Assembly (NCBI GenBank): GCA_026989095.1
Contig: JALSKA010000246.1
Span: 1 to 38,509, forward strand
DNA: 38,509 nt
Direction of reading: 5' to 3'
DNA from: Ardenticatenaceae bacterium
GTDB lineage: Bacteria; Chloroflexota; Anaerolineae; Ardenticatenales; Ardenticatenaceae
The notes beneath the pieces were generated by a model. The model was not told where the DNA came from and did not search any database. It saw nothing but the letters and a program-made list of their open reading frames with translations. Below, piece after piece: positions 749 through 25,552 of this stretch (positions are counted from its first letter, which is position 1; each line of letters starts with the position of its first letter). The translations under genes were made by a program, and so were the position numbers.

Positions 749-783
749 CGTTTTATTGTGTGCAAAAGGAGTGTGAGCAGCGT

Positions 784-1886
784 ATGGCCCCGCACGTTGG
801 ACGTGAATCCCCGAAAGGCGTGATCTTGGTGGTGGAGGACGCGGACGACATCCGTGCCCTCATGCGCGTGCGCCTCGAGCGGCGAGGTCACACGGTGGTC
901 GAGGCCCGCAACGGCCTCGAGGCGCTGGAGGTGGTGCGCGCGCGGGCCGTCGATCTCATCCTGCTCGACATCATGATGCCGGAGCTCAACGGCTTCGACG
1001 TGTTGCGCGCGCTCAAGGCCAACAGCGAGTGGCAGCACATTCCCGTGGTGGTGCTCTCGGCGCTCGACGATACCGAGCACGTGGTGCAGTGCATTCGCTT
1101 GGGGGCGGACGATTACCTGGTAAAACCTTTTAAATCCGTGCTGCTCTACGCCCGCGTGGACAACCTGCTGGAGCGCAAGCACCTCCGCGACCGGGAGCAG
1201 GAGATCTTACGGGCGCTCCAGGAGGAGCAGAGGCGCACGGAGCAGTTGCTGCGCAGTATTTTCCCCCAGGCCATTGCCGAACGCCTCAAGTCGGGCTTTG
1301 CGGGCATTATCGCCGAACAGTATGAGATGGCCAGTGTCCTGTTCGCCGACATCGTTGACTTCACCAGGCGCGCCGCCCAGATGGAGGCCGAGGAAGTGGT
1401 GAGCTTCTTGGGAGATGTCTTCGCCCAGTTCGAGAAGCTCACCGCCGCGTTCGGGGTGGAGAAGATCAAGACCATCGGCGATGCTTTCATGGCCGCGGCC
1501 GGCGTTCCCGAGCCGACGCCCCGCCACGCTGAACAGTTGCTCCGGCTGGCCTTTGCCATGCGCCAAAGTGTGGCCAACATGCGCTGGCCCGACGGCTCCC
1601 CGGTCCACCTGCGAGTTGGCTTGGCCTCCGGCCCGGTGGCGGCGGGCGTGTTGGGCACCAGTCGCTTCAGTTACGACGTGTGGGGCAACACCGTCAACAT
1701 GGCCAGCCGGCTCCAGGAGCTCGCGCTGCCCAACACGGTCCTCGTCGATGAGGTGACGTGGCGCCTCGTTGAGCACTTGGCCATAGGCGCACCCCGGGTG
1801 GAGCGGGTCAAGGGCAAGGGGAACATGACCGTCTACGAAGTGGAGCCCCGGTACGGTCAGGCGGCGGTCAGGGAGGGTGGCGTCAC

Positions 1887-1890
<4 letters not shown>
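784..1890 (+). CDS. Response regulator fused to class III adenylate cyclase
   Basis: A 368-residue cytoplasmic two-domain signalling enzyme. An N-terminal receiver domain (about 12-130) has the acidic pair E18/D19, phospho-acceptor D62 in LLDIMMPE, S92 and K114. A charged helical linker (about 131-170) leads to a class III nucleotide cyclase domain (about 180-355). Metal-binding Asp residues are D189 (FADIVDF) and D233 (TIGDAF). The base-selecting pair is K229 and D298 (SYDVWGN), the adenylate-cyclase type, and N305 and R309 complete the transition-state set, so the enzyme should be active and make cAMP. I start it at ATG 784; an upstream GTG at 760 sits almost at the predicted transcript start. 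It overlaps the next kinase gene as GTGA. Inference: phosphorylation by one of the two downstream kinases gates cAMP output. Confidence 0.93.
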
Positions 1891-3719
<1,829 letters not shown>

Positions 3720-3805
3720 GCCTCCGGGCGTGTTCCGCATTTGAAGAACTCTGTGGTAGAGGGGAAACGGGCTTACGCCGTGGGTTCTCGAGTGGAGGGG
3801 AGTCG

Positions 3806-5964
<2,159 letters not shown>

Positions 5965-5968
<4 letters not shown>

Positions 5969-6345
5969 GCACACGGGTGCTGCTGGTGGAGGACAACGAG
6001 CTCAACCGGAACATGTTGAGCCGGCGGTTGCAGCGGCGCGGGTTCGACGTGATCACCGCGGAGGACGGCGTGGAGGCGCTGGAGCTCGCCCGCCGCGAGA
6101 GGCCCGACATCATCCTGATGGACATGAGCCTGCCCCGCATGGACGGCTGGACGGCCACGGCTCGCCTGAAGCAGGACCCGGAGCTGGCGAACATCCCGGT
6201 TATCGCGCTCACGGCCCACGTCATGTTGGAGGACCGCGAGAAGGCCCTGCGCGCCGGGTGCGACGAGTACGAGACGAAGCCGGTGGATTTCAAGCAATTG
6301 CTGCGGAAGATCGAGCGCCTGCGGCTTCGGGGTTCCCGGGAGTGA
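5965..6345 (+). CDS. Single-domain (CheY/DivK-like) response regulator
   Basis: A 126-residue stand-alone receiver starting at ATG 5965, with GGGAGG five nt upstream and a 4-nt overlap with the kinase stop. The acidic pair E9/D10, phospho-acceptor D53 (ILMDMSLP), T83 and K105 (ETKPVDF) are all present, and there is no output domain. It is likely the direct target of the preceding kinase, passing phosphate or a protein contact to another component. A longer reading of this frame from 5665 lies inside the kinase gene and is not needed. Confidence 0.92.
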
Positions 6346-6347
6346 AG

Positions 6348-6903
6348 TCACGCGAGGGAGTAGACCACCCACCCCGCTCCGCGCTGCCAGTCGATCTCGG
6401 CCTCGAGCACCCCCGGCTGCTCGAAGAGGAGGCCGCGCACGGCGGCCGCACAGCCGCTTCAGGTCATGCCTTCGATGGCGAGCGTAGCTCTGCGCGGCGA
6501 CGTCAGGTTCGATGTCGGCGCTGCCGGAGCACCCTGTGCGGGCTGGGCCGGCGCTGCTTCGGGGGCCAGTGAGCGGTAGACGAGCGTGGGGGTGACGTAG
6601 GTCAACAGCACATAGCTTGCCGCGAAGCTGATCAGCGCCACACTTGGGAACAGCCACACGTGGCGCTGATGTTGTGTGACGTCGCAGGTCTGTCGGCTGC
6701 GCCGCAGGGTGACGGCGAGGCCGGCCAGCGTGAACGTCGCCCCTGCGGCCAAGAAGTAGAGCCGGTATTGGATCAGGCCGAACAGGAAGATGGCCCCTGT
6801 GAGCCCGAGCAGGGCGGCCACGGTGGGGCCCAAACAGAATGACCCCGCCGCTCACGCCCCAACGGGTGCCCGGGTTGCTCTGAGGCAATTTCGGCGCGGG
6901 CAT
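6348..6903 (-). pseudogene. MerT-like membrane protein with C-terminal HMA domain; frameshift plus in-frame TGA at the metal-site Cys (pseudogene or selenoprotein)
   Basis: The reading starts at ATG 6903-6901 with GGGAGG upstream (MPAPKLPQSNPG...). The frame must shift by one base at the GGGG run at 6846-6843; removing one G joins it to FCLGPTVAALLGL, a MerT-like first membrane helix with its Cys. Three hydrophobic helices and a loop with one Cys (RQTCDV) follow, then a Pro/Ala linker and IEGMT. There a TGA (6461-6459) replaces the codon expected to be the first Cys of GMTCxxC. Translation past it gives 36 residues that fit an HMA domain (SGCAAAVRGLL, PGVLEAEIDW, GWVVYSLA) and ends at TGA 6350-6348, two nt from the convergent regulator gene. 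A 6-bp hairpin with a 5-nt loop starts 12 nt after the TGA. MerT/HMA proteins move Hg(II) or other soft metals; the substrate here is unknown. Confidence 0.7.
6431..6461 (-). promoter_or_regulatory. Candidate bacterial SECIS hairpin after in-frame UGA
   Basis: After UGA (6461-6459), 11 nt lead into GGCCGC (6447-6442), loop CGUGC (6441-6437) and GCGGCC (6436-6431). Loop distance from the UGA (about 18 nt) and a G at loop position 2 agree with general features of bacterial SECIS elements. In 70% GC DNA such a hairpin can arise by chance, so this is weak support alone. Confidence 0.3.
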
Positions 6904-7127
6904 GGCATCATCCTCCCACATGTGATTTCCGCGTTGGGTTCACCGTAGCTCCACCATGAGAGGGGGAGAGGGCAGCGGAACCGCTTCTATACCCCATCCC
7001 CCCTACAGGATAAAGAGTGGCAGAAGACTCCCTCCGTGTCAAATACAAGCTTGGGCTTGGGGGACTGAGGAGATTGTGCTGCGGGCAATGCCCGCGCGTC
7101 TCGCGAGTGGGGTGAGGGGGCGGGGTA

Positions 7128-10100
7128 TCAGGGTGATGGCGCGTGAGGAAGGCCCAGCTCGGCTTTCAGGCGCTCGATGCGCTTCGCCTCGCCGCGGGCC
7201 CCCAACTTCTGCACGATCTCCTCGGCTTGCGCCAAGAAGTGCGCGGCCTCCTCCACACGGCCGGACTTGGCCTCCACGCGCGCCAGCTCGACCAGCAGGC
7301 GGGCTTGTCTGTAGGCTTCAGTTTCAATCTCGTAGCTTTTTTGAAGCTCAATACGGGCCAATTCGTAATCACCTTGGGCTTCGGCCAATAGACCGTAGAA
7401 ACGGTGAAGAAAGAAGGTGGTTGTGGGATCCAACTCTTGTACTTGATCTTCATAACTACGAAGCTGTTCAGCTAATGTCATAGCATCTTTCATTTTGTCG
7501 AGATAAATGGCTGTCTCACCTTTTAATGAAATAACTAACAGAAGCATGTTGAGAGGTATATTGGTTTGGTTTTCTAATTCTAGAATGTAATTCAATTCTC
7601 TCTCCGCACTATCCCATGCTTCCTGAGACATATAAAGTTGAGCCAGAGTCTGTCTTACCCACGTTTGTAGAAATCTACTGTCCAGCCGATCGGCTAAACT
7701 TTTGGCCTTTGTCAGCACTACATTTGCCTCTGTAAATCTTCCTAACAAAGTATATAACATGCCGGTATTTATGAATGCCAAAGCCAATCCTTCGTAATCG
7801 CCGATACGCTCTTGGATTTGAGCTGCTTGTTGATAAAAATCAAGGGCATCCTGCCAAAGCCCTTGCACGCTATGGAGGACGGCCAAATTCATGTTGGTAC
7901 GTGCAATTTCATCGAGGTGTCCCAATGCCTCTCGAATGGCTAGAGCCTCTCGGGTGTAGCGCACGGCTGTCTTGAGGTCACGCCGTTGGAAGGCGAGCCC
8001 TCCCAAGCGGTTCAACACGGCGGCGGTGACCGCCTGACTGCTCCGCCGGGCCAGCTCTAGGGCCTTGGTAAGCCACTGGTGGGCCCCGTCGAACTGCCCC
8101 ATGCGGAAGAGCACCCAGCCGATGTCGCTGCAGGTGGCCGCCAGCTCGGCCTCCTCGTCGCCCGCGCCTTCGGCTTGGAGCAACCCGTGGGCGGTCCGCA
8201 GGGCCTCCAGCGCCTCGGCGTAGAGCCCCTGGCGCTCGAAGGTGGTGCCGATGCGCCGCCAGAGGGAGGCCTGGAGCAGGCGGCGGGCCCCGTCGCCTTG
8301 GGTCACGGCCTCGAGGGCCCGGCGGTAGGCTGCCCGCGCCTCCTCGTAGCGCCCCACGAAGCTCAACACGTCCCCCAAGCCCGACTCGATGGCCACCAGT
8401 TGGCTGAGACTTGTTTCGCCCTGTGCGGTCAAGGCCCGGGCGCGCTCGAAGAAGGCAATGGCCTCGTGGTTGGCGTAGCGGGCGGCGGCCTTCTGGCCGG
8501 CCCGGATCAGGTAGGGGAGGGCTCGCTCCGGCTCCGCGCTCCTGGCGTAGTGGTGGGCGAGCATTTCCACGTAGTCGTCGCTGTCGGGCGGCGAGAGGCG
8601 TTCCAGCGCTTGGGCCACCCGCAGGTGAAGGGCTTGCCGGTCGGCCACCAGCAGGCTGTTGTAGATCACGCCGTGGGCGATGCGGTGTTGGAAGGTGTAC
8701 TCCAGCGTGGGCGCGTCGGGCAGGCGCTGGAGGAAGCGGGCCTCCACGAGCGCTTCCACCCGGGCCATGAGGGGTTCCGCGCCGGCGGCGGACTCCAAAC
8801 ACTCCTCAAGGAGCCGGAAGGGCACGCGCCGGCCGATGACGGCCGCCACGCCGAGCACCTCGCGCAGGGAGGGCGCCAGCCGGGCGTAGCGGGCCATGAC
8901 GATTTCCTCGACCGTGCGGGGCACGGCGATCTCTTCCAGGGCCTGTTCCGTGGTGGCCCGCCAGCGGCCCTCCTCGCGCACGAGCACACTGGCCTCGATG
9001 AGGGCCCGCAGGAGCTCTTCCAAGTAGAGGGGAATGCCCTCGGAGTAGGCCACGATGTCCTGTCGCAGGCGGGCGGGGAGCTCCGGCCGGTCGAGGAGCA
9101 AGTCGAGCAGGCGGTCCACCTCCTCGGGCGAGAGGGGGGCCAGCTCCACGATGCGGTGGGCCCCCGGGGCGGCCCGCGCCAGCAAGGCGTGCCAGTCCCG
9201 CTCCCCGCTGCGGGCACTGCGGCTGCTGCAACAGAAGAGCACGGGCTCCTCTTCCAGGCCGACGATGAGGTGTTCCACCAGCTCGGCCGAGAGGTCGTCG
9301 GCCCAGTGGAGGTCCTCCAACACCAACACGAGGGGGCGCGAGCGGGCCTCGGCCCGCAGGAACTCGGCCACGGCCCCGAAGACGCGCTGTTTGAGCTGCT
9401 GGGGCGAGAGGTGTTCCAGGGACGTGGGCAGGGCCACATCGGTGGCCAGCAGGTGGAGGATGAAGGGCACCAGCTCCTCCCACCGGTCGGGCACGAGCCG
9501 GCGCAGGCGCGTCTCCACTTGTCGCCGCGTGGTGGCCGGATCCTGCCCGAAGGGCACGCCGAAGTAGCGCTTCAGCAGATCGCCGAAGAGCCCGTAGGGC
9601 ACGTTGTGGGTGTGTTCGTAGCACCCGGTGCTGATGGTGGTGTGCTCGAAGGGGAGCCGTTCGAGGTATTCAGCCAGGAGGCGGGACTTGCCGATGCCGG
9701 CCTCGCCCACCACCAGGACGACGCCACGGCGCCCGTCGCCCAAGCACTGGGTCACGCCCTCGAGGGCCTTCAGCTCCTCTTCCCGTCCCACGAGGGGGGC
9801 CACTAACCCCGGTATGCTCAGCCCCCGGGCGCGGCCGGGGGTTACGCGCGCGCGGCGCACCTCATAGGCCCGCACGGGCACCGGATATCCCTTCAAGTGG
9901 AGCTCGGGGAGCTCCCGGTACTCGATGTAGGCGCGGGTGGCCTCTTGGACCGCCTCGCTCACCAGGATGTGGCCCGGCTGGGCGGCGTGTTCCAGGCGGG
10001 CCGCCAAGTTCACCGTGTCCCCGATAACCGTGTAGGCGCGGAAGTGGTCGGTGCCCACCTCGCCGGCAACCACCTCGCCGGCGTTGATGCCGATGCGCAG

Positions 10101-10700
10101 GCGGATTTCTGTGCCGTACTTGGCCCGTGCCTCCTCGTTGAAGGCGCGGATGGCCTCCTGCATGGCCATGGCCGCCCAGACGGCGTGGAGGGCGTGCTGT
10201 TCCAAGGGTGTGGGGGCGCCGAAGATGGCCATCAGCCCGTCCCCCGTGAACTTGTCCACTGTGCCGCCGAAGCGGTCCACCTGGGAGGCCAGGTGGCGCA
10301 GGGCCTGGTCCACCAGCACGTAGATCTCCTCGGGGTCCATGCGGGTGGAGAGGGCCGTGAAGCCGCTGATGTCGGCGAAGAGCACGCTCACCTTCCGGCG
10401 TTCCCGCCGGCCCCCTGTGGCGTCGGCGGCGAGGGCCCGGTGATCCCGCAGGGGGTAGGCGCACGTGCTGCAGAAGTGGGAGGAGGGGAGATTGAGGGCA
10501 TGACACTGGGGACAGGCGCGCGGCAGCTCGGCGCGGCAGGCCGCACAGTGGCGGGCGCCGCTCAGGTTGGTGGTCCCACAGCGGACGCACGTCCTCCCCA
10601 AGTCGCGGCCACATTGCCCACAGAACCGGCTGGTGGCGAGGTTCTCGAATTGGCAGGCCGGGCAGCGTTGCAGCAGATAGGGTGGGTGTTCAAAGGCCAT
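7128..10700 (-). CDS. Zinc-ribbon / adenylate cyclase / AAA ATPase / TPR signalling protein
   Basis: A 1190-residue protein starting at ATG 10700. Three consecutive double-Cys zinc ribbons occupy residues 13-80 (CPAC/CGQC, CVRC/CAAC, CPQC/CSTC). A class III cyclase domain follows (about 103-280) with metal Asp D110 and D154, base-selecting K150 and T224 (the Lys/Thr pair of class IIIb adenylate cyclases), and N231/R235. A STAND/AAA_16-like ATPase has Walker A GEAGIGKS (332-339) and Walker B LVLVLEDLHWADD. The C-terminal half is TPR-like helical repeats. Such proteins are thought to tie ligand or partner binding by the TPRs to cyclase activity. Codons for about residues 905-1125 are far more AT-rich than the rest although the frame is intact. 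Downstream bases 6922-7127 hold only a small GCGGGC/GCCCGC hairpin (7081-7095). Confidence 0.9.
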   Translation of the reverse strand: MAFEHPPYLLQRCPACQFENLATSRFCGQCGRDLGRTCVRCGTTNLSGARHCAACRAELPRACPQCHALNLPSSHFCSTCAYPLRDHRALAADATGGRRERRKVSVLFADISGFTALSTRMDPEEIYVLVDQALRHLASQVDRFGGTVDKFTGDGLMAIFGAPTPLEQHALHAVWAAMAMQEAIRAFNEEARAKYGTEIRLRIGINAGEVVAGEVGTDHFRAYTVIGDTVNLAARLEHAAQPGHILVSEAVQEATRAYIEYRELPELHLKGYPVPVRAYEVRRARVTPGRARGLSIPGLVAPLVGREEELKALEGVTQCLGDGRRGVVLVVGEAGIGKSRLLAEYLERLPFEHTTISTGCYEHTHNVPYGLFGDLLKRYFGVPFGQDPATTRRQVETRLRRLVPDRWEELVPFILHLLATDVALPTSLEHLSPQQLKQRVFGAVAEFLRAEARSRPLVLVLEDLHWADDLSAELVEHLIVGLEEEPVLFCCSSRSARSGERDWHALLARAAPGAHRIVELAPLSPEEVDRLLDLLLDRPELPARLRQDIVAYSEGIPLYLEELLRALIEASVLVREEGRWRATTEQALEEIAVPRTVEEIVMARYARLAPSLREVLGVAAVIGRRVPFRLLEECLESAAGAEPLMARVEALVEARFLQRLPDAPTLEYTFQHRIAHGVIYNSLLVADRQALHLRVAQALERLSPPDSDDYVEMLAHHYARSAEPERALPYLIRAGQKAAARYANHEAIAFFERARALTAQGETSLSQLVAIESGLGDVLSFVGRYEEARAAYRRALEAVTQGDGARRLLQASLWRRIGTTFERQGLYAEALEALRTAHGLLQAEGAGDEEAELAATCSDIGWVLFRMGQFDGAHQWLTKALELARRSSQAVTAAVLNRLGGLAFQRRDLKTAVRYTREALAIREALGHLDEIARTNMNLAVLHSVQGLWQDALDFYQQAAQIQERIGDYEGLALAFINTGMLYTLLGRFTEANVVLTKAKSLADRLDSRFLQTWVRQTLAQLYMSQEAWDSAERELNYILELENQTNIPLNMLLLVISLKGETAIYLDKMKDAMTLAEQLRSYEDQVQELDPTTTFFLHRFYGLLAEAQGDYELARIELQKSYEIETEAYRQARLLVELARVEAKSGRVEEAAHFLAQAEEIVQKLGARGEAKRIERLKAELGLPHAPSP
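7320..7980 (-). other. AT-rich island inside the cyclase/TPR gene
   Basis: The segment is visibly AT-rich (TTT, AAT, TTA and ATA codons are common), while flanking parts of the same gene are strongly GC-rich. The reading frame continues without break and still encodes TPR-like helices. This suggests replacement of part of the repeat region by foreign DNA, or an unusual local constraint. Confidence 0.75.
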
Positions 10701-10920
10701 AGAGCACCAGGCAATCGGTTCGAGTTCACAAGCCCTCGGGCACCTCCCGACCGGCCGCCGGAGCTCTTCGCGTTTGCACCTGGTGGGGGGCGAACGGCCG
10801 CCACAAGGGGATGGGCGCCCCGCTATTGTAGCACAGGTGGGGGAGGAGGAGCAAGCGGGACACCGGTGCCCTGAAGTTTTTCAACGAACCGATATGTGCG
10901 TTCAGGTGGCAATCAGCCCG
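10701..10920. other. Intergenic upstream region of the cyclase/TPR gene
   Basis: Between the start of the cyclase/TPR gene and the terminator of the S8 peptidase gene I see no gene. It should hold the promoter of the minus-strand cyclase gene, but I cannot point to a convincing -35/-10 pair. The start codon at 10700 has no strong Shine-Dalgarno sequence. Confidence 0.4.
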
Positions 10921-10966
10921 AGCAGACAAACGCACCGGGCGGGGAGTGCAAGCCCCCGCCCGGTGC
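10921..10966 (-). terminator. Intrinsic terminator of the S8 peptidase gene
   Basis: A perfect 13-bp stem, GCACCGGGCGGGG (10932-10944) against CCCCGCCCGGTGC (10954-10966), with a 9-nt loop. Read on the minus strand it is followed by GTTTGTCT. It lies 82 nt after the stop codon of the peptidase gene. Confidence 0.75.
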
Positions 10967-11048
10967 ACGGCACGGCTCATGTGAGAGGTGGCACCTGGAC
11001 GACAATTGCGCGTGCGCTGAAACACGTGGCGCCCCGGGACCCCCTTGC

Positions 11049-12917
11049 TCAGGGCAGGATGCCCACGGTGACCGTCACGCTCTCCAGGGGGCCGCCAGCC
11101 CAGACCCATGTGCTGCCACTCCATGCCCACTTGCCAGTGCCGGCCCAGACCCATGTGTCACCAGCCCAGACCCATGTGCCACCAGCCCACACCCATGTGC
11201 TGCCAGCCCAGACCCATGTGCCACCAGCCCACACCCATGTGTCACCAGCCCACACCCACTTGCCACCAGCCCAGACCCATGTGTCACCAGCCCACACCCA
11301 TGTACTTCCATCCCACACGAAGTAATTCTCCGGCAGGGGCGGGGCGTCGCTGATGTAGAAGAGGCCGGCGTCCTGGTCGTACTCGGTGTAGCCCTCGTAG
11401 TGGGTGCCGGAGGCGGTCACGTCCAGGTCGGCGTTGATGTCCAGGCCGTTGTTGGCCGAGCGGCGTTCCACGTCGGCGAAGACGGCGTCCCACGCTTGGA
11501 CTTTGCCGGCGCCCTGCTCCCAGATGGTGTAGATGGCGCGGTTGCCCGTCTCATCGACGGCCAGGGCAGCCGTGTCCTGGAGGCGGGCCTTCACCTCGTC
11601 GTTGGTCAGGTCGGGGTTCTGCTCCAACATGAGGGCCACCAGGCCGGAGACCTGGGCGGCGGCCATCGAGGTGCCGCTGAGCTGGAAGTACCCGATCTTC
11701 TCGCGGCCCCAGCGGACCACGGGCACGTCGTCATCGTCGTCGTCATCGTGGCCCTCACCATCATCATCGTCGCCGTCGTCATCGTTGCCCAAGAAGCGCT
11801 GGGCCAACGCCGACTTCATGGGCATGGGGCCGGTGATCTTCCAGCCGGGGGCCAGCACGTCGGGCTTCACGAAGCGGGACTCCGTCGGGCCACGGGCGGA
11901 GAAGTCGGCCAACTCGTCGGCGCCCGAGTCGGTGAAGCGCGCTTCCTTGTACGCGCCCACGGTGATCACGTAGGGCACGTTGCCGGGCACGCCCACGCTG
12001 GCCGGCGTGGGCCCGTCGTTGCCGGCGGCCACGACGACCACCAGCCCGGCCTGCCACGCGCGCATCACCGCCTGGCCCAAGGGGTCAACCCAGTAGGGCA
12101 CTTCGACGGGCGCGTAGAGGGAGAGGTTGAGCACGTCGATGCCGTAGACATCGCGGATGCTCACGATCCAATCGATGGCCGCGATCACGTCCGCGTAGGT
12201 GCCGCTCCCGTCCGCGCCGAGGGCACGGGCCACCACCAAGTTCACGCCCGGCGCCACGCCGGCGTAGACCGTGCCACCATCCTCCTCTTCAGCCGGGGTG
12301 CTGTCGGCGATGATGCCGAGCACGTGCGTGCCGTGGCCGAAGGGGTCCTGGCTCTTCTTGGCGTTGGGGTCGATGAAGTCCTTGTAGAGCACGAACCGGC
12401 CCGTGCGGCGGTCCTTGTAGAAGAGGCTGCCGTCCTGGGGCGCGCCGGCAGGCCGCCCGCCCCGGCCGCGCTTGAGCTTGGGGGTAAAGGGCATGCCCGT
12501 GTCCACCAAGGCCACGGTCACCCCACGGCCGGTGATGCCTTGCTCGTGGATTTCGTTCACCCCGGCAGCGGCAGACGCATAGTGGCCTTCGGGCAGCGTG
12601 CGCCGCGCGCGGCGGTCGGGCTGGGAGGTCACCTGCACCTTGCGGTTGGGCCACACGGCGCGTACAGCCGGATCGCGGCGGAGGCGCGTCACCGTGTCGG
12701 CGGTCACGCGAGCGGCCACGCTGTCGATGATGGAGAGAGGGCGGAGAACAGTGCCGCCGTAGGCAGCAACCAATTGGGCGGCCGCCTCGCTGCTCTGCGC
12801 CTGCACGATGACCTCGACGGGGGATGTGGCGACTGGCGAGGAGAAAGTAATGCCCAGGAGAACGGCGAGGAAGAGAACCAGGGTTAGCCACCGAAAAGCA
12901 CGTCTGTGATGGGACAT
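11049..12917 (-). CDS. Secreted subtilisin-like (S8) serine peptidase with C-terminal WVWAG repeats
   Basis: A 622-residue protein starting at ATG 12917 with GGAGG upstream. A basic N-terminus and hydrophobic stretch (10-30) form a signal peptide; an inhibitor-like prodomain (about 35-100) precedes the catalytic domain. Catalytic residues are D139 (ALVDTGMP), H195 (GHGTHVLG), oxyanion N300 (AAGNDGP) and S417 (SGTSMAAA). An Asp-rich insertion (378-397) just before the serine motif may bind calcium. After the catalytic domain the tail ends in ten short repeats, mostly (D/G/S)TWVWAG. There is no obvious transmembrane anchor or sorting signal, so the repeats may mediate cell-surface or substrate attachment. 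Upstream are a c-di-GMP riboswitch and terminator, so expression is probably linked to the motile/sessile switch. Function beyond peptidase is inferred. Confidence 0.94.
   Translation of the reverse strand: MSHHRRAFRWLTLVLFLAVLLGITFSSPVATSPVEVIVQAQSSEAAAQLVAAYGGTVLRPLSIIDSVAARVTADTVTRLRRDPAVRAVWPNRKVQVTSQPDRRARRTLPEGHYASAAAGVNEIHEQGITGRGVTVALVDTGMPFTPKLKRGRGGRPAGAPQDGSLFYKDRRTGRFVLYKDFIDPNAKKSQDPFGHGTHVLGIIADSTPAEEEDGGTVYAGVAPGVNLVVARALGADGSGTYADVIAAIDWIVSIRDVYGIDVLNLSLYAPVEVPYWVDPLGQAVMRAWQAGLVVVVAAGNDGPTPASVGVPGNVPYVITVGAYKEARFTDSGADELADFSARGPTESRFVKPDVLAPGWKITGPMPMKSALAQRFLGNDDDGDDDDGEGHDDDDDDDVPVVRWGREKIGYFQLSGTSMAAAQVSGLVALMLEQNPDLTNDEVKARLQDTAALAVDETGNRAIYTIWEQGAGKVQAWDAVFADVERRSANNGLDINADLDVTASGTHYEGYTEYDQDAGLFYISDAPPLPENYFVWDGSTWVWAGDTWVWAGGKWVWAGDTWVWAGGTWVWAGSTWVWAGGTWVWAGDTWVWAGTGKWAWSGSTWVWAGGPLESVTVTVGILP
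11094..11306 (-). repeat. Ten tandem 21-bp units encoding WVWAG heptapeptides
   Basis: Nine 21-bp units and one 24-bp unit (11115-11138) encode heptads such as DTWVWAG, GTWVWAG, STWVWAG, GKWVWAG and the variant TGKWAWSG. The DNA units are very similar, mainly alternating CAGACCCATGT and CACACCCATGT on the plus strand, which suggests recent expansion by slippage or unequal crossing over. The array ends about 14 residues before the C-terminus. Confidence 0.95.
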
Positions 12918-20753: not shown

Positions 20754-20815
20754 AGGGGTTGCGAACACCCCTCCTGCCAGACGCGCCGGCGTGAGCCGAA
20801 AGGCCAAAGGTCCCT

Positions 20816-20844
20816 TTGGCAATGCCGGCCGATTGTGTTAAGAT
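20816..20844 (+). promoter_or_regulatory. Promoter of the sigma/anti-sigma/CHAT operon
   Basis: TTGGCA (20816-20821), 17 nt, TAAGAT (20839-20844). The -35 forms part of a 7-bp hairpin (GCCAAAG/CTTTGGC, 20803-20820) that may also end the upstream glycosyltransferase transcript. The pair looks like a housekeeping promoter; I do not see a duplicated ECF-type motif. Confidence 0.5.
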
Positions 20845-20935
20845 GTGACTATTCCCTCGGACGTGGAACGAGATGGTCCCAAGGTGAACGTGCCCGCGTG
20901 CGGTGGGGCAGTTGGGGAGAGAGCAGGGCCCGCCT

Positions 20936-21640
20936 ATGCACAACAACGGAGGAGACAAGCCGGTCACTCATCTGTCCAACGACGTGCTGGCCAAACGGTG
21001 TGCTGAGGAGCGGGAGCGCTTCTTCCGGCGCGAACCGGCTGACAACCGCTTCTGCTTCGAGCTCTTCCGGCGGGCCATCCTGTACCACAATCAACACGCC
21101 TGGCACATTCTCTACGAGCAGTACCACGCCCTCGTGAGCGGGTGGATTCGCCAGAGCAGCGGCTTTCAGGCCGGCCAGAGCGACTTGGAGGAACTGGTGA
21201 ACTTGACGTTTACCAAATTCTGGCAGTCGGTGCCGGCCTCCAAGTTTCAACGTTTCGCCTCCCTCGAAGCGGTGCTGCAATACCTGCGCCTCTGTGCCGG
21301 CAGCGTAGTCATGGACATGGCCCGCCGGCGCAAGCACGAGAACCGGCTCACCGCCTACGAAACCGTCCTGGGGGGGATGGCCGACCATCATGACGTGGAA
21401 CAAGCGGTCTTGGACGACATCACCCGCCAGCGCTTCTGGCAAGAAGTCCTCGCCCTGTTGACGAACGAGGCTGAAGAGAAGGTGGTCTTCAGCTACTTCG
21501 TCCTCGGCATGAAACCCCGACAGATCCAAGCGGCCTACCCGGAGACCTTTCCCTCCGTGGAGCTCGTGTACCAAACGAAGCGCAACGTGCTCAACCGCCT
21601 GCGGCGCTCCAAGATCCTGGAACGGTGGTTGAACGAGTGA
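20936..21640 (+). CDS. ECF-like RNA polymerase sigma factor
   Basis: A 234-residue protein. Region 2 is recognisable: AWHILYEQYHALVSGWI, DLEELVNLTFTKFW and LEAVLQYLRLCAGSVVMDMARRRKHE match the core-binding and -10-recognition helices of ECF factors. The C-terminal part (about 165-230) has a divergent region 4 helix-turn-helix, with LVYQTKRNVLNRLRRS as the likely recognition helix. A variable extension of about 45 residues precedes region 2. I chose ATG 20936; a GTG at 20903 has no ribosome-binding site. The next gene is a zinc-type anti-sigma factor and the third a TPR-CHAT protein, so the three probably form one regulatory cassette. Target promoters are unknown. Confidence 0.82.
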   Translation: MHNNGGDKPVTHLSNDVLAKRCAEERERFFRREPADNRFCFELFRRAILYHNQHAWHILYEQYHALVSGWIRQSSGFQAGQSDLEELVNLTFTKFWQSVPASKFQRFASLEAVLQYLRLCAGSVVMDMARRRKHENRLTAYETVLGGMADHHDVEQAVLDDITRQRFWQEVLALLTNEAEEKVVFSYFVLGMKPRQIQAAYPETFPSVELVYQTKRNVLNRLRRSKILERWLNE

Positions 21641-21875
21641 GCCAAAAAAGGCCGGCCGCGCGTTTATACAGAGTAAGTGATTCAACTCCACCCAGCCTGC
21701 TGTTCAACACGGGTACGTTGACCCTCAGGAGGAGTTTGGGAACGGCACAGGTGTCAGGTGCGGAACACCCTTTCAACTCCATCTCTTCCCACCATATTCC
21801 CCACAGAAGTGGTGATGTGACCCGGAAAATGTGCGGGCAGAGCAAGAAGTGGAGAAGGAAGAAGGAGAAGGTGCT
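21641..21875 (+). other. Spacer between sigma and anti-sigma genes
   Basis: 235 nt without a gene. It contains AT-richer stretches (TTTATACAGAGTAAGTG near 21662) that could be an internal promoter, and a good AAGGAG ribosome site just before ATG 21876. A separate promoter for the anti-sigma and CHAT genes would allow autoregulation, but I cannot define one with confidence. Confidence 0.3.
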
Positions 21876-22595
21876 ATGAGCGCACATGTCGATGAACGGG
21901 TACTGGAAGAGCTCCTGGCCGGCGAGGCGCCGCCCCACGTGGAGGAGCACGTGGCCAAATGCGCCCTCTGCCGGCGGCGGGCGGCCGACTTGGCCAGGGA
22001 AGAGGCCATCCTCATCCGGATGCTGTGGCGAATGTCTTGCCCCAACTCCCTGAAGCTCAGCGAGTGGGCGGCGGGCCTGTTGGCGGCACAGGAGGCTCAA
22101 CAGGTGCAACGCCACGTTACTGTGTGCCCCCATTGCCGTGAAGAGGCCGCCTTGGCGCGAGAGATGCTCAGCTTCGACATTCAGGAGAGCACGCTTGCCG
22201 TGGCCAAGCGGAAAGTGCGCCGCATGGTGGCCACGCTGATGGGCGGAGAGGCGGCAACGTTGCCCACCGCCTTCGCGCTGCGGGGCGCGCCGAGCAGCGG
22301 CCGGCAGTACCAAGTGGGCCCGATTCGCGTGACCCTCGACTTGGAGCGGGAGTCGCCGGCCAACTACACCATCTTTGGGTTAATCTTGAGTGAGGCCGAG
22401 GACATCGGACACTTTGAAGGAATGCATGTGCGTTTGGAGCAACCTCCCGACCTGGAAGTGGCCACAACACAGGTTGATGATCTGGACACATTTGTCTTCG
22501 CCCACGTGACTCCCGGCACCTACATGATCGAGATCGAGACCGATGAAGGGGTCGTCGTCATCGAGAACTTAGTCGTGGGCAACGGCCAACAGTAG
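21876..22595 (+). CDS. Soluble anti-sigma factor with two ZAS (zf-HC2) motifs
   Basis: A 239-residue protein starting at ATG 21876 behind AAGGAG. Two anti-sigma zinc motifs of the form HxxxCxxC are visible: HVAKCALC (H25, C29, C32) and HVTVCPHC (H80, C84, C87); the second is preceded by a SCPNSLKLSEWAAG segment typical of ZAS domains. No transmembrane helix follows, so it is probably cytoplasmic. The C-terminal 110 residues look all-beta (VGPIRVTLDLE, PGTYMIEIETDEGVVVIENL), like a carboxypeptidase-regulatory or Ig-like sandwich. It should sequester the sigma factor encoded just upstream. The CHAT gene starts 26 nt after its stop, which makes it the obvious candidate substrate or partner of that protein. 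Confidence 0.85.
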   Translation: MSAHVDERVLEELLAGEAPPHVEEHVAKCALCRRRAADLAREEAILIRMLWRMSCPNSLKLSEWAAGLLAAQEAQQVQRHVTVCPHCREEAALAREMLSFDIQESTLAVAKRKVRRMVATLMGGEAATLPTAFALRGAPSSGRQYQVGPIRVTLDLERESPANYTIFGLILSEAEDIGHFEGMHVRLEQPPDLEVATTQVDDLDTFVFAHVTPGTYMIEIETDEGVVVIENLVVGNGQQ

Positions 22596-22621
22596 AGCTC
22601 GTCGTTCGAGGAGCGCCGGCG

Positions 22622-25552
22622 ATGCCCTCCCCCGAGGTGTTGCTGGAACAGTGGGAAGCGTGTTCCCCCGCAGAGTTCCGCCGGTGGTTTGAAGCCCACG
22701 CCGATGCTCTCAGCGACGCTTTTTTCGAGGGGATGAAGGCCCGCATCTCCGAACGCTATCTCCAGGAGGACGCCAGGCGGGCCTTGGAGTTGGCCCAGAG
22801 CATTCTCCTCGCCGCCGAGCTGACCCGGCGTCCCTTCCACAGGCTCCTGGGCCTGATGGCCTTGGGAAACGTGTACGGCTTCGCCCAAGGCCGATACCAG
22901 GAGGCGCTGGAGACGTTCGAGGAGGCCCTGAACGTGGCCTCCGCGTGTGGCGCCCAGGAACACGCCCGCCGCATCCGCATGGCTCAGGTCTACGTCCTCG
23001 GTCTTCTGGGGCGCTTCGACGAGGCCATAGCCGTTGGTGAGGCTGTCTCCCGCGAGGCCAAGGAGGCCGAGAACTGGCCGGCCTACATGGGAGTGCTCAA
23101 CAACTTGGCCATCGTCTGTCGGCGTCGGGGAGACCTCAATCGCGCCCTCGCCCTCCAGGACGAACACAAGCGCATCTTGGACCGCTACGTGCCCGACACC
23201 TCTGAGTATTACAGCCGCCTCTTCCGCCTCCAGCTCAACAGTTCCATTATCTACGTCCACATGAACGCCTTCCAAGAGGCCATCCAAGCCGCCCAAGAGG
23301 CCCTTCGCATTGCCGAGCAGATCATGAAGCAGCCGGCGCGGGTGGCGCGTGCGAAGGACAGCTTGGGGCTCATCTACTTCTACAAGGGCGCGTACAACGA
23401 TGCTCTGGCCTACTTTCAGGAAGCGCGCCGCATCTTCGAGGCCAGCCACCTGGAGCGAGATGCAGTCATAGCTCGCCTCTTCGAGACCCGGTGCCTGCTG
23501 GCCCTCAACGACGTGGAGACGGTGGAGCAGGCGGCTTCCCACATCATCGAGTACAGCTTGAAGACCGGCATGGACCACGAGGTGGCCCTGGCTTACTTGT
23601 ACCGCTCCAAAGCCCGCCGGCACATGGGGCGACTTTTGCAAGCGGCCAACGACTTGGAACAGGCCGCAATGATCTTCAAGGCCCACAACAACGAGGAGTG
23701 GCTGGGCCAAGTCTACTTGGAGCTGGCCTACGTCTTCCTGGCCACCGACAGCCTCTTCGAGGCCACACTGGCCGCAGAAGCGGCCCAGTACTATTTTGAA
23801 CAGCTCGACTTGCCCCTTGAACGGGCCCAAGCGTTGCTCGTGCAGGGGCTCATGGCCGAACAGCGCAACTGGCCGGAGATGGCCCGGCGCCTCTACAGAG
23901 ACGTGTTGCGCATTGGCCGGCGGGAGCAGTTGGCCATGTTGATCTATCCCGCCTGTTATGGACTGGCCCGTTTGGAGCAGCGCGTGGGACACGTGGAGGC
24001 GGCCCGTGCGCGCTTCCAACAGGCCATTCAGGCCATCGAGGAGTTGCGCGGCAGCGTGGCCGTCGAGTTGCGAGTGCCTTTCCTGGCCGACAAGCTGAAG
24101 ATCTACGAACAGGCCATCGCCCTGGAGCTGGATGCCGGCACGCCCGAGACGGCCTTTCGGCTCGTCCAGTACGTCAAGTCGCGCGCCCTCCTCGACTTGC
24201 TGGGAGAAGAGCACAGCCTGCGCTTCCAAGCAGCCGATCCCCACGATCAAGAGATCGTGGAGGAGATCCACCATCTCCGCGAACGGTGGCGCTGGCTTCA
24301 GCGCAGGGCCCTCTACATCCCCATGCGCACCAAGCCCGACTCCGAGTTCGCCTTGGACCCACAGCGGCGCAAGGCATTCCTCGCCGAGGCCCAACAGTGC
24401 GAGGCCCGCCTGCGTGCTCTCTTCCGGGAGTTCCAAGTGCGTCGTACTTCCACACATGGCCTGACGCCCTCCTTGGCAGACGTGTCCGCCGAGGACGTGC
24501 GCGCCTGTTTGCCGCCGGACACGTTGTTGGTGGAGTATTTCGCCGTTGACGGCCGGCTGTGGGCGTTCGTAGTCAGTGAGGAGCACCTCCACGCCCAGGA
24601 GCTCTGCACCGTCACCCAGGTGCGCCACCTGATGGGACGGTGGCGCCTTCTCATGGGCCACATGGCCTCCTCCGGCCGGGCACGCTTGGGGGCCGCGCAG
24701 CGCGTGTTGGCCCACTTGTACGACATGCTCTTCGCCCCGTTGCACGAGCACCTCTCGGGCCGTTCGCGTCTCTACGTGGTGCCCCACAGCGTGCTTCACT
24801 ATCTCCCCTTCTCCTCCCTGTACAACCGGCGGAGCGGGCAGTATCTCGTGGAGGAGTGTGCTGTTGCCAGGCTGCCCAGCAGTGGCCTGTTGCCCCTCCT
24901 GCGGGCCCGAAACAGGCACACGTCGGAAGGAACACCCTTGATCCTGGGGCACAGCCACCACGGCATGTTGCCCGTGGCCGTGGAGGAGGCCCGTGACGTG
25001 GCCGAGCTCGTCTGGGGAGAGTGCTACCTGGAAGAGGAGGCCCTGGGCGAACGGCTCACCAGGGGCGACACGTGGCGCCCCCTCATCCACGTGGCCGCAC
25101 ACAGCGTCTTCCGCGCCGACGCGCCCCTCTTCTCGGCCATCTACTTGGCCGACGGCCCCCTGACCACATTGGACCTCTTCGGGGCTTCCATGCCCGCCGA
25201 CCTGCTGGTCCTGAGCGCTTGCGAGACGGGATTGGGCGTTGTCCACCCCGGGGACGAAATCATGGGGCTGAGCCGGGCATGTCTCCACGCCGGGGCCCAA
25301 TCCCTGCTCCTCAGCCTGTGGCGCATCGAAGATCGCACCACGAAGACCTTCATGGTGGACTTGTACGCTCACCTGCTGGCCGGCGCCTCCCCGGCCGAGG
25401 CCTTGGCCCGCGTGCAGCGCCGCCGCCTGCGCGACCCGGCCACGGCACACCCCTTCTACTGGGCGGCCTTCTCCGTCACGGGCGACGCCTTCACTGCCGT
25501 TCGGCTGACGGCCGCGCGGGCCGAGAGCACGGCGCTCGGCGATTCCCCTTGA
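22622..25552 (+). CDS. TPR-CHAT protein, putative caspase-like cysteine protease
   Basis: A 976-residue protein starting at ATG 22622 with GAGGAG upstream. Residues 1 to about 560 are TPR-like helical repeats (for example QEALETFEEALNVA and LNRALALQDEHKRI). A linker of about 90 residues leads to a C-terminal CHAT (caspase HetF-associated with TPRs) domain at about 650-970. The expected catalytic dyad is intact: H827 in HVAAHSVF and C867 in LVLSACETGLG, with supporting LSLWRIEDRTTKTFM and HPFYWAAFSVTGD motifs. CHAT-TPR proteins include separase-like proteases and Csx29 of type III-E CRISPR. Here it follows a sigma/anti-sigma pair with no CRISPR in the window, so it may cleave the anti-sigma factor when the TPRs bind a signal. 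Protease activity is inferred from the dyad only. Confidence 0.92.
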   Translation: MPSPEVLLEQWEACSPAEFRRWFEAHADALSDAFFEGMKARISERYLQEDARRALELAQSILLAAELTRRPFHRLLGLMALGNVYGFAQGRYQEALETFEEALNVASACGAQEHARRIRMAQVYVLGLLGRFDEAIAVGEAVSREAKEAENWPAYMGVLNNLAIVCRRRGDLNRALALQDEHKRILDRYVPDTSEYYSRLFRLQLNSSIIYVHMNAFQEAIQAAQEALRIAEQIMKQPARVARAKDSLGLIYFYKGAYNDALAYFQEARRIFEASHLERDAVIARLFETRCLLALNDVETVEQAASHIIEYSLKTGMDHEVALAYLYRSKARRHMGRLLQAANDLEQAAMIFKAHNNEEWLGQVYLELAYVFLATDSLFEATLAAEAAQYYFEQLDLPLERAQALLVQGLMAEQRNWPEMARRLYRDVLRIGRREQLAMLIYPACYGLARLEQRVGHVEAARARFQQAIQAIEELRGSVAVELRVPFLADKLKIYEQAIALELDAGTPETAFRLVQYVKSRALLDLLGEEHSLRFQAADPHDQEIVEEIHHLRERWRWLQRRALYIPMRTKPDSEFALDPQRRKAFLAEAQQCEARLRALFREFQVRRTSTHGLTPSLADVSAEDVRACLPPDTLLVEYFAVDGRLWAFVVSEEHLHAQELCTVTQVRHLMGRWRLLMGHMASSGRARLGAAQRVLAHLYDMLFAPLHEHLSGRSRLYVVPHSVLHYLPFSSLYNRRSGQYLVEECAVARLPSSGLLPLLRARNRHTSEGTPLILGHSHHGMLPVAVEEARDVAELVWGECYLEEEALGERLTRGDTWRPLIHVAAHSVFRADAPLFSAIYLADGPLTTLDLFGASMPADLLVLSACETGLGVVHPGDEIMGLSRACLHAGAQSLLLSLWRIEDRTTKTFMVDLYAHLLAGASPAEALARVQRRRLRDPATAHPFYWAAFSVTGDAFTAVRLTAARAESTALGDSP

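Follow-up and report, generated by a model that had tools for sequence, protein, structure and literature searches.

The DNA analysed here, a stretch of 38,509 nucleotides (the window) from contig JALSKA010000246.1 of an Ardenticatenaceae bacterium (Chloroflexota; assembly of 3.29 Mb in 262 contigs), carries at 20936-25552 on the + strand three adjacent genes, which encode in this order a sigma factor, a zinc-binding anti-sigma (ZAS) factor and a TPR-CHAT protease. We lean towards interpreting these genes as a CRISPR-independent, protease-gated sigma switch, in which the CHAT protease would cut the linker of the anti-sigma factor and so free the sigma factor. The basis for this interpretation is the gene content, conservation, linkage and co-phylogeny of the three genes, the intact catalytic residues of the protease, the linked absence of CHAT and of the beta domain of the anti-sigma factor, and an invariant arginine in the linker. 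An original prediction, made from the window alone, had regarded the genes as one cassette that fulfils the three roles known from the Craspase of type III-E CRISPR, in a window without any CRISPR gene or array.

Conservation and linkage of the three genes

To characterize the conservation of the cassette we used a set of 400 Chloroflexota genomes, in which 86 gene neighbourhoods were read. Close relatives of the CHAT protein (E ≤ 1e-60) were found in 50 genomes and the sigma family in 81 of the 400. The sigma family was present in 46 of the 50 genomes with the CHAT subfamily compared to 35 of the 350 others (Fisher 3e-33, uncorrected for relatedness). Upstream sequence of 2 kb or more was available at 51 CHAT loci, of which 40 had a sigma gene upstream on the same strand and 44 a gene for a beta-domain protein directly upstream; at two further CHAT loci (L072 and L134) the sigma gene was found in another arrangement. 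The survey of co-occurrence that the original prediction had called for is thus in agreement with its claim.

The order of sigma, anti-sigma and CHAT gene is kept in many Chloroflexota families, and the window's cassette proteins are 74-83% identical to their counterparts in 'Ardenticatenia bacterium Faavne_M6_B1'. The CHAT and sigma trees divide into the same subfamilies. In genomes that possess two cassettes (G305, G339, G256 and G369) each sigma gene stays with its own CHAT gene. As the gene order is conserved, the phylogenies agree and the losses are linked (see below), the comparison supports that the three genes form one real conserved cassette. A loose association of any CHAT gene with any sigma gene was rejected, since in ten largely complete genomes no other CHAT gene had a member of this sigma family closer than 10 kb. 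The plasmid CHAT genes that we looked at had unrelated neighbours, and no beta protein was found in plasmids. Viral contigs compared with the anti-sigma alignment yielded no usable pattern.

Beta domain and CHAT were scored over 75 sigma loci: 48 had both, 22 neither, 4 only the beta domain and 1 only CHAT (Fisher 6e-14, uncorrected for phylogeny). Neither a detectable beta domain nor CHAT accompanied the 14 sigma factors of one clade, which has strong support in the tree; 10 of these 14 were accompanied by a ZAS anti-sigma factor that lacks the beta domain, while none was detected for the remainder. In class B the zinc ligands of the anti-sigma factor are mostly gone, yet beta domain, CHAT and sigma factor are retained. 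Because it is absent in the CHAT-less clade and kept in class B despite the loss of the zinc ligands, the beta domain appears to track the protease and not the zinc site.

A further protease gene accompanies part of the loci. In 21 of 54 loci compared, an S8 subtilase gene follows 3' of CHAT on the same strand. It occurs in classes A2, A3 and B (here as secreted-type subtilases), in the L059/L072 pair and at loci without a sigma gene, whereas all class A1 loci compared lack it. The window contains no subtilase gene nearby, and in its genus the orthologue is unlinked. The subtilase may be a second protease of the pathway or an output. The CHAT-subtilase pairs without a nearby sigma gene (L010, L011, L117 and L121) sometimes include a double-ZAS beta protein; a repeated NEGNPAP tract is present in the subtilases of L010 and L011.

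Domain architecture of the three proteins

The sigma gene lies in the open reading frame 20903-21640, for which ATG 20936 is the likeliest start because the open frame begins only at about 20888. The protein scored 13.7 bits with Sigma70_r2 of Pfam, below the cut-off of 24, and phmmer returned no match to it in the PDB. The only match reached with the profile of its family was RpoE (E=0.019). Iterative family profiles joined the protein at 1e-30 to 1e-41 to the canonical extracytoplasmic function (ECF) sigma factors of class B, which mostly occupy the same position beside CHAT and match solved ECF sigma factors at 8e-8. Due to this connection we accept the originally predicted assignment as a probable ECF-like sigma factor, albeit a very divergent one.

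For the anti-sigma factor (open reading frame 21831-22595) the start at ATG 21876 is better conserved than that at GTG 21831. It matched zf-HC2 of Pfam above the cut-off (4.6e-6) and has ChrR, DdvA and RsiW among its relatives. Its two HxxxCxxC motifs are 55 residues apart, within the 52-61 residues (mostly 55) of the class A relatives, and H95, C99 and C102 are invariant in the A1 alignment. The tail gave weak matches to CarboxypepD_reg, SdrD_B and related folds; beta strands were also seen in a low-quality structure model. No transmembrane segment was found in the window protein, such that a membrane-anchored anti-sigma factor controlled by intramembrane proteolysis was rejected for the window. 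All elements of the predicted soluble protein with two zinc motifs and a beta-rich tail were hence recovered.

The linker that joins the ZAS part to the beta domain consists of the end of a helix (RRxxAxL) and, after it, a stretch that varies in length and sequence. It is the stretch of lowest confidence in the structure model. Within it, position R151 is an arginine in 60 of 61 aligned rows, while the neighbouring columns have an entropy of at least 2.2 bits. Proteases of clan CD, e.g. separase, often cut after arginine. R151 may be considered as a candidate for the cut site of CHAT.

The CHAT gene (22622-25552) encodes a protein that matched Pfam CHAT at 7e-57 and contains TPRs. The catalytic residues H827 and C867, named correctly in the original prediction, are invariant in 61 of 61 relatives. 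Its closest solved CHAT domains are those of the Csx29 proteins (~1e-18), with which the catalytic His and Cys align, followed by those of the TPR-CHAT protein 7ZOQ and of 8ROT_B. The score with the Csx29 model was 36.8 at a cut-off of 300, and in a defence-system database nothing matched except the TPR. The proximity of the CHAT domain to Csx29 and, at a greater distance, to 8ROT_B, in which a ZAS-like stretch and CHAT share one chain, provides support by homology for the three Craspase-like roles.

Relation to CRISPR and to known systems

In agreement with the original prediction, the window showed neither a CRISPR array nor a cas gene. A pair of 31-nt direct repeats (550-580 and 621-651; intergenic, 71 nt apart) was rejected as an array, since the window holds no further copies. 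Type III RAMP genes are found on other contigs of the same genome (G000 C3, C196, C219 and C252), unlinked to the cassette, and are absent from three near-complete genomes that carry the cassette. Dependence on a type III system in trans was rejected on account of these three genomes. Together with the lack of an array in the window they support that the cassette is independent of CRISPR.

Among the closest known systems is Craspase (DiCASP) of type III-E CRISPR, which comprises the TPR-CHAT protease Csx29, its substrate Csx30, which is a sigma inhibitor, and CASP-sigma (PMC10028731). In both systems a TPR-CHAT protease with a His/Cys dyad is encoded together with an inhibitor of sigma and with a sigma factor, which is of ECF type in Craspase and probably ECF-like in the window. 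In contrast to Craspase, the window cassette has no gRAMP/Cas7-11 and no array and does not need type III genes; its inhibitor is a ZAS and beta protein for which Pfam, NCBIfam and PDB searches gave no Csx30 match.

The type III CRISPR system CalpL-CalpT-CalpS likewise unites protease, anti-sigma factor and sigma factor in one signalling cassette; its protease, of Lon-SAVED type and activated by cyclic oligoadenylate, has an unrelated fold (see also PMC11417357). HetF of Anabaena is a protease of CHAT type. Outside CRISPR, in the HetF-PatU3-HetZ system (PMC12288457), HetF cleaves PatU3, by which a gene regulator is inhibited; this system differs from the cassette by having neither a sigma factor nor a ZAS anti-sigma factor.

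A 2022 review (PMC8999054), which cites Casas-Pastor 2021 and Huang 2015, lists CHAT, subtilase and carboxypeptidase proteins as neighbours of ECF54 sigma factors; it describes these sigma factors as having no anti-sigma factor and suggests that proteolysis regulates them. Judged by the neighbour set alone, the cassettes are strikingly similar, having CHAT, an S8 subtilase and a carboxypeptidase-regulatory-like beta protein as neighbours; at the window itself CHAT and beta protein are adjacent, while the subtilase is adjacent in relatives and unlinked in the genus. Unlike in the description of ECF54, the beta protein found here has a ZAS part, double in class A and degenerate in class B, which suggests that the 'carboxypeptidase' proteins beside ECF54 may be beta-domain partners, possibly anti-sigma factors, of these sigma factors.

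Among the relatives of the window's ZAS family are also the following two solved structures. One is the antisigma factor DdvA (PDB 8RLZ); in Myxococcus DdvA restrains the ECF sigma factor DdvS (PMC4374960). The other is 8ROT_B, a 'CHAT domain-containing protein' of 991 residues, in which an N-terminal stretch matches the ZAS family and CHAT is C-terminal. The structure of a ZAS-CHAT fusion is therefore already solved; our literature search found no paper on 8ROT. While 8ROT_B has ZAS and CHAT in a single chain, the window encodes two proteins, probably linked by the beta domain on the ZAS protein.

The idea that a CHAT-type protease releases a gene regulator is already known from Craspase, from HetF-PatU3 and, as a proposal, from ECF54. 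New are a cassette in which a double-ZAS anti-sigma factor goes with a sigma factor of a divergent family, the recognition of the beta domain as a CHAT-linked module, and a specific candidate site.

Proposed mechanism and alternatives

In the proposed switch the anti-sigma factor would bind and hold the sigma factor through its double ZAS and dock on the TPR-CHAT protein through its C-terminal beta domain. Once the TPRs sense a signal, the Cys/His dyad of CHAT would become active and cut the anti-sigma factor in its linker, with R151 as the likeliest position. The ZAS fragment would be finished by host proteases or, in many relatives, by the co-encoded subtilase, and the freed sigma factor would go to RNA polymerase. 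The beta domain that goes along with CHAT and the arginine of the linker make the cleavage step of the original prediction more specific, while the subtilase, the class without zinc ligands and the ECF54 parallel could not be seen from the window alone.

Several observations weigh against this reading. When the correlation of beta domain and CHAT was evaluated by independent contrasts, about 4 supported changes remained, giving p=0.125 at best. Some beta-type sigma/anti-sigma pairs stand apart from CHAT (L048, L071, L077, L085, L166 and L167); most of their genomes carry CHAT elsewhere, and the CHAT loci without sigma gene in G001, G002 and G166 are the complement of such split beta-only loci. 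At the four CHAT-subtilase loci mentioned above, no sigma gene is nearby. The structure models of the window and L009 sequences were poor, with pLDDT values of 55 and 41. In Craspase the C-terminal part of Csx30 serves as docking element, which agrees with the role proposed here for the beta domain, but the cut site itself varies (PMC10028731, PMC11106740). The published Craspase cut sites are unconserved while R151 is conserved, for which reason R151 may instead be a folding or docking residue.

One alternative is that CHAT, together with the subtilase where present, is an effector under the control of the sigma/anti-sigma pair. It would act in a stress response, differentiation or cell death via other substrates, and the beta domain would be a sensor or feedback substrate. 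The sigma-less CHAT-subtilase pairs and the secreted-type subtilases 3' of CHAT in class B would fit such a role. However, the only conserved promoter motif is housekeeping-like and located upstream of the sigma gene, nothing indicates that CHAT has a promoter of its own, and the joint absence of beta domain and CHAT suggests that the two are direct partners. We consider this alternative unlikely.

Even less probable in our view is a three-way complex that works without proteolysis of the anti-sigma factor, which would inhibit sigma by its ZAS and CHAT by its beta domain until a signal frees both and CHAT hits other proteins. Such a complex has no need for an invariant arginine in the linker, and the known substrates that the proteases Csx29 (PMC10028731) and HetF (PMC12288457) cleave are inhibitors of gene regulators, even though it would account for beta domain and CHAT staying together when the zinc ligands of the ZAS are lost. 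A plain redox or metal switch like RsrA/ChrR, in which oxidation of the zinc site frees sigma and CHAT is incidental or later clears the anti-sigma factor, agrees with the two conserved HxxxCxxC sites and with the ZAS-only anti-sigma factors retained by CHAT-less relatives, but is very improbable given that the zinc ligands are mostly missing from class B cassettes, which still have sigma factor, beta domain and CHAT.

Beyond the protease-gated switch itself, we tentatively suggest, at somewhat less than even confidence, that it is a widespread non-CRISPR module: CHAT would recognise a dedicated beta domain, cut the linker at the invariant arginine and free a new, deep-branching sigma family, and Craspase would be the CRISPR-recruited version of this older switch. 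If so, CHAT proteases would control transcription outside CRISPR through anti-sigma cleavage, and the sigma branch of Craspase would gain a plausible evolutionary source. CHAT biology would gain a simple system of three proteins, for which substrate, docking domain and cut site are all predicted. A function would also be suggested for the so far unexplained CHAT, subtilase and carboxypeptidase neighbours of ECF54 sigma factors.

Locus layout and neighbouring genes

The features of the cassette are listed in Table 1. The promoter boxes (TTGGCA-17-TAAGAT) are identical in 3 congeneric genomes though the flanking DNA diverges, and the -35 box at 20816 coincides with the left edge that the original prediction had given. 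A second exact copy was not found in the 3 congeneric genomes. A sigma regulon derived from this motif was rejected, since the exact motif occurs at this locus alone and near matches resemble ordinary sigma-70 promoters.

Table 1. Coordinates of the promoter, genes and domains of the cassette within the window.
Feature	Position	Strand	Evidence
Operon promoter, sigma-70-like with extended -10 (TTTGGCA-12-TGTGTTAAGAT)	20815..20844	+	Scan; both boxes exact in 3 congeneric genomes
Probable divergent ECF-like sigma factor (sigma2 and sigma4, N-terminal extension)	20936..21640	+	Profile searches
Soluble anti-sigma factor: double ZAS, linker and beta domain	21876..22595 (alternative start GTG 21831)	+	zf-HC2 4.6e-6; ChrR, DdvA, RsiW matches
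First zinc motif HVAKCALC, residues 40-47 (GTG numbering)	21948..21971	+	
Second zinc motif HVTVCPHC, residues 95-102 (GTG numbering)	22113..22136	+	
Linker RRMVATL...FALR with R151 (codon 22281-22283), candidate CHAT cleavage/docking site	22218..22283	+	
C-terminal beta domain (CarboxypepD_reg/SdrD_B-like), candidate CHAT docking module	22302..22586	+	Profile matches, co-occurrence with CHAT
TPR-CHAT protein, 976 aa	22622..25552	+	
TPR region, presumed sensor	22856..24034	+	TPR_12, TPR_MalT and others
CHAT protease domain; H827 codon 25100-25102, C867 codon 25220-25222	24698..25486	+	Pfam CHAT 7.1e-57

Genes with DUF4388 and Cache domains (family f31) are conserved beside class A1 cassettes (L145 11679-14396 and 13 further loci). 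Upstream of the cassette in the close relative L009, the gene for a glycosyltransferase (5776-7845) is split into two open reading frames, due to either a sequencing error or a frameshift. Elsewhere in the window, an adenylate/guanylate cyclase fused to an AAA ATPase and TPRs, with zinc ribbons, is encoded at 7131-10700 on the - strand; near it, at 760-5968, lie a response regulator-cyclase and two histidine kinases. A block of eight or nine 21-bp tandem repeats at 11091-11349 is located inside the open reading frame 10896-12887.

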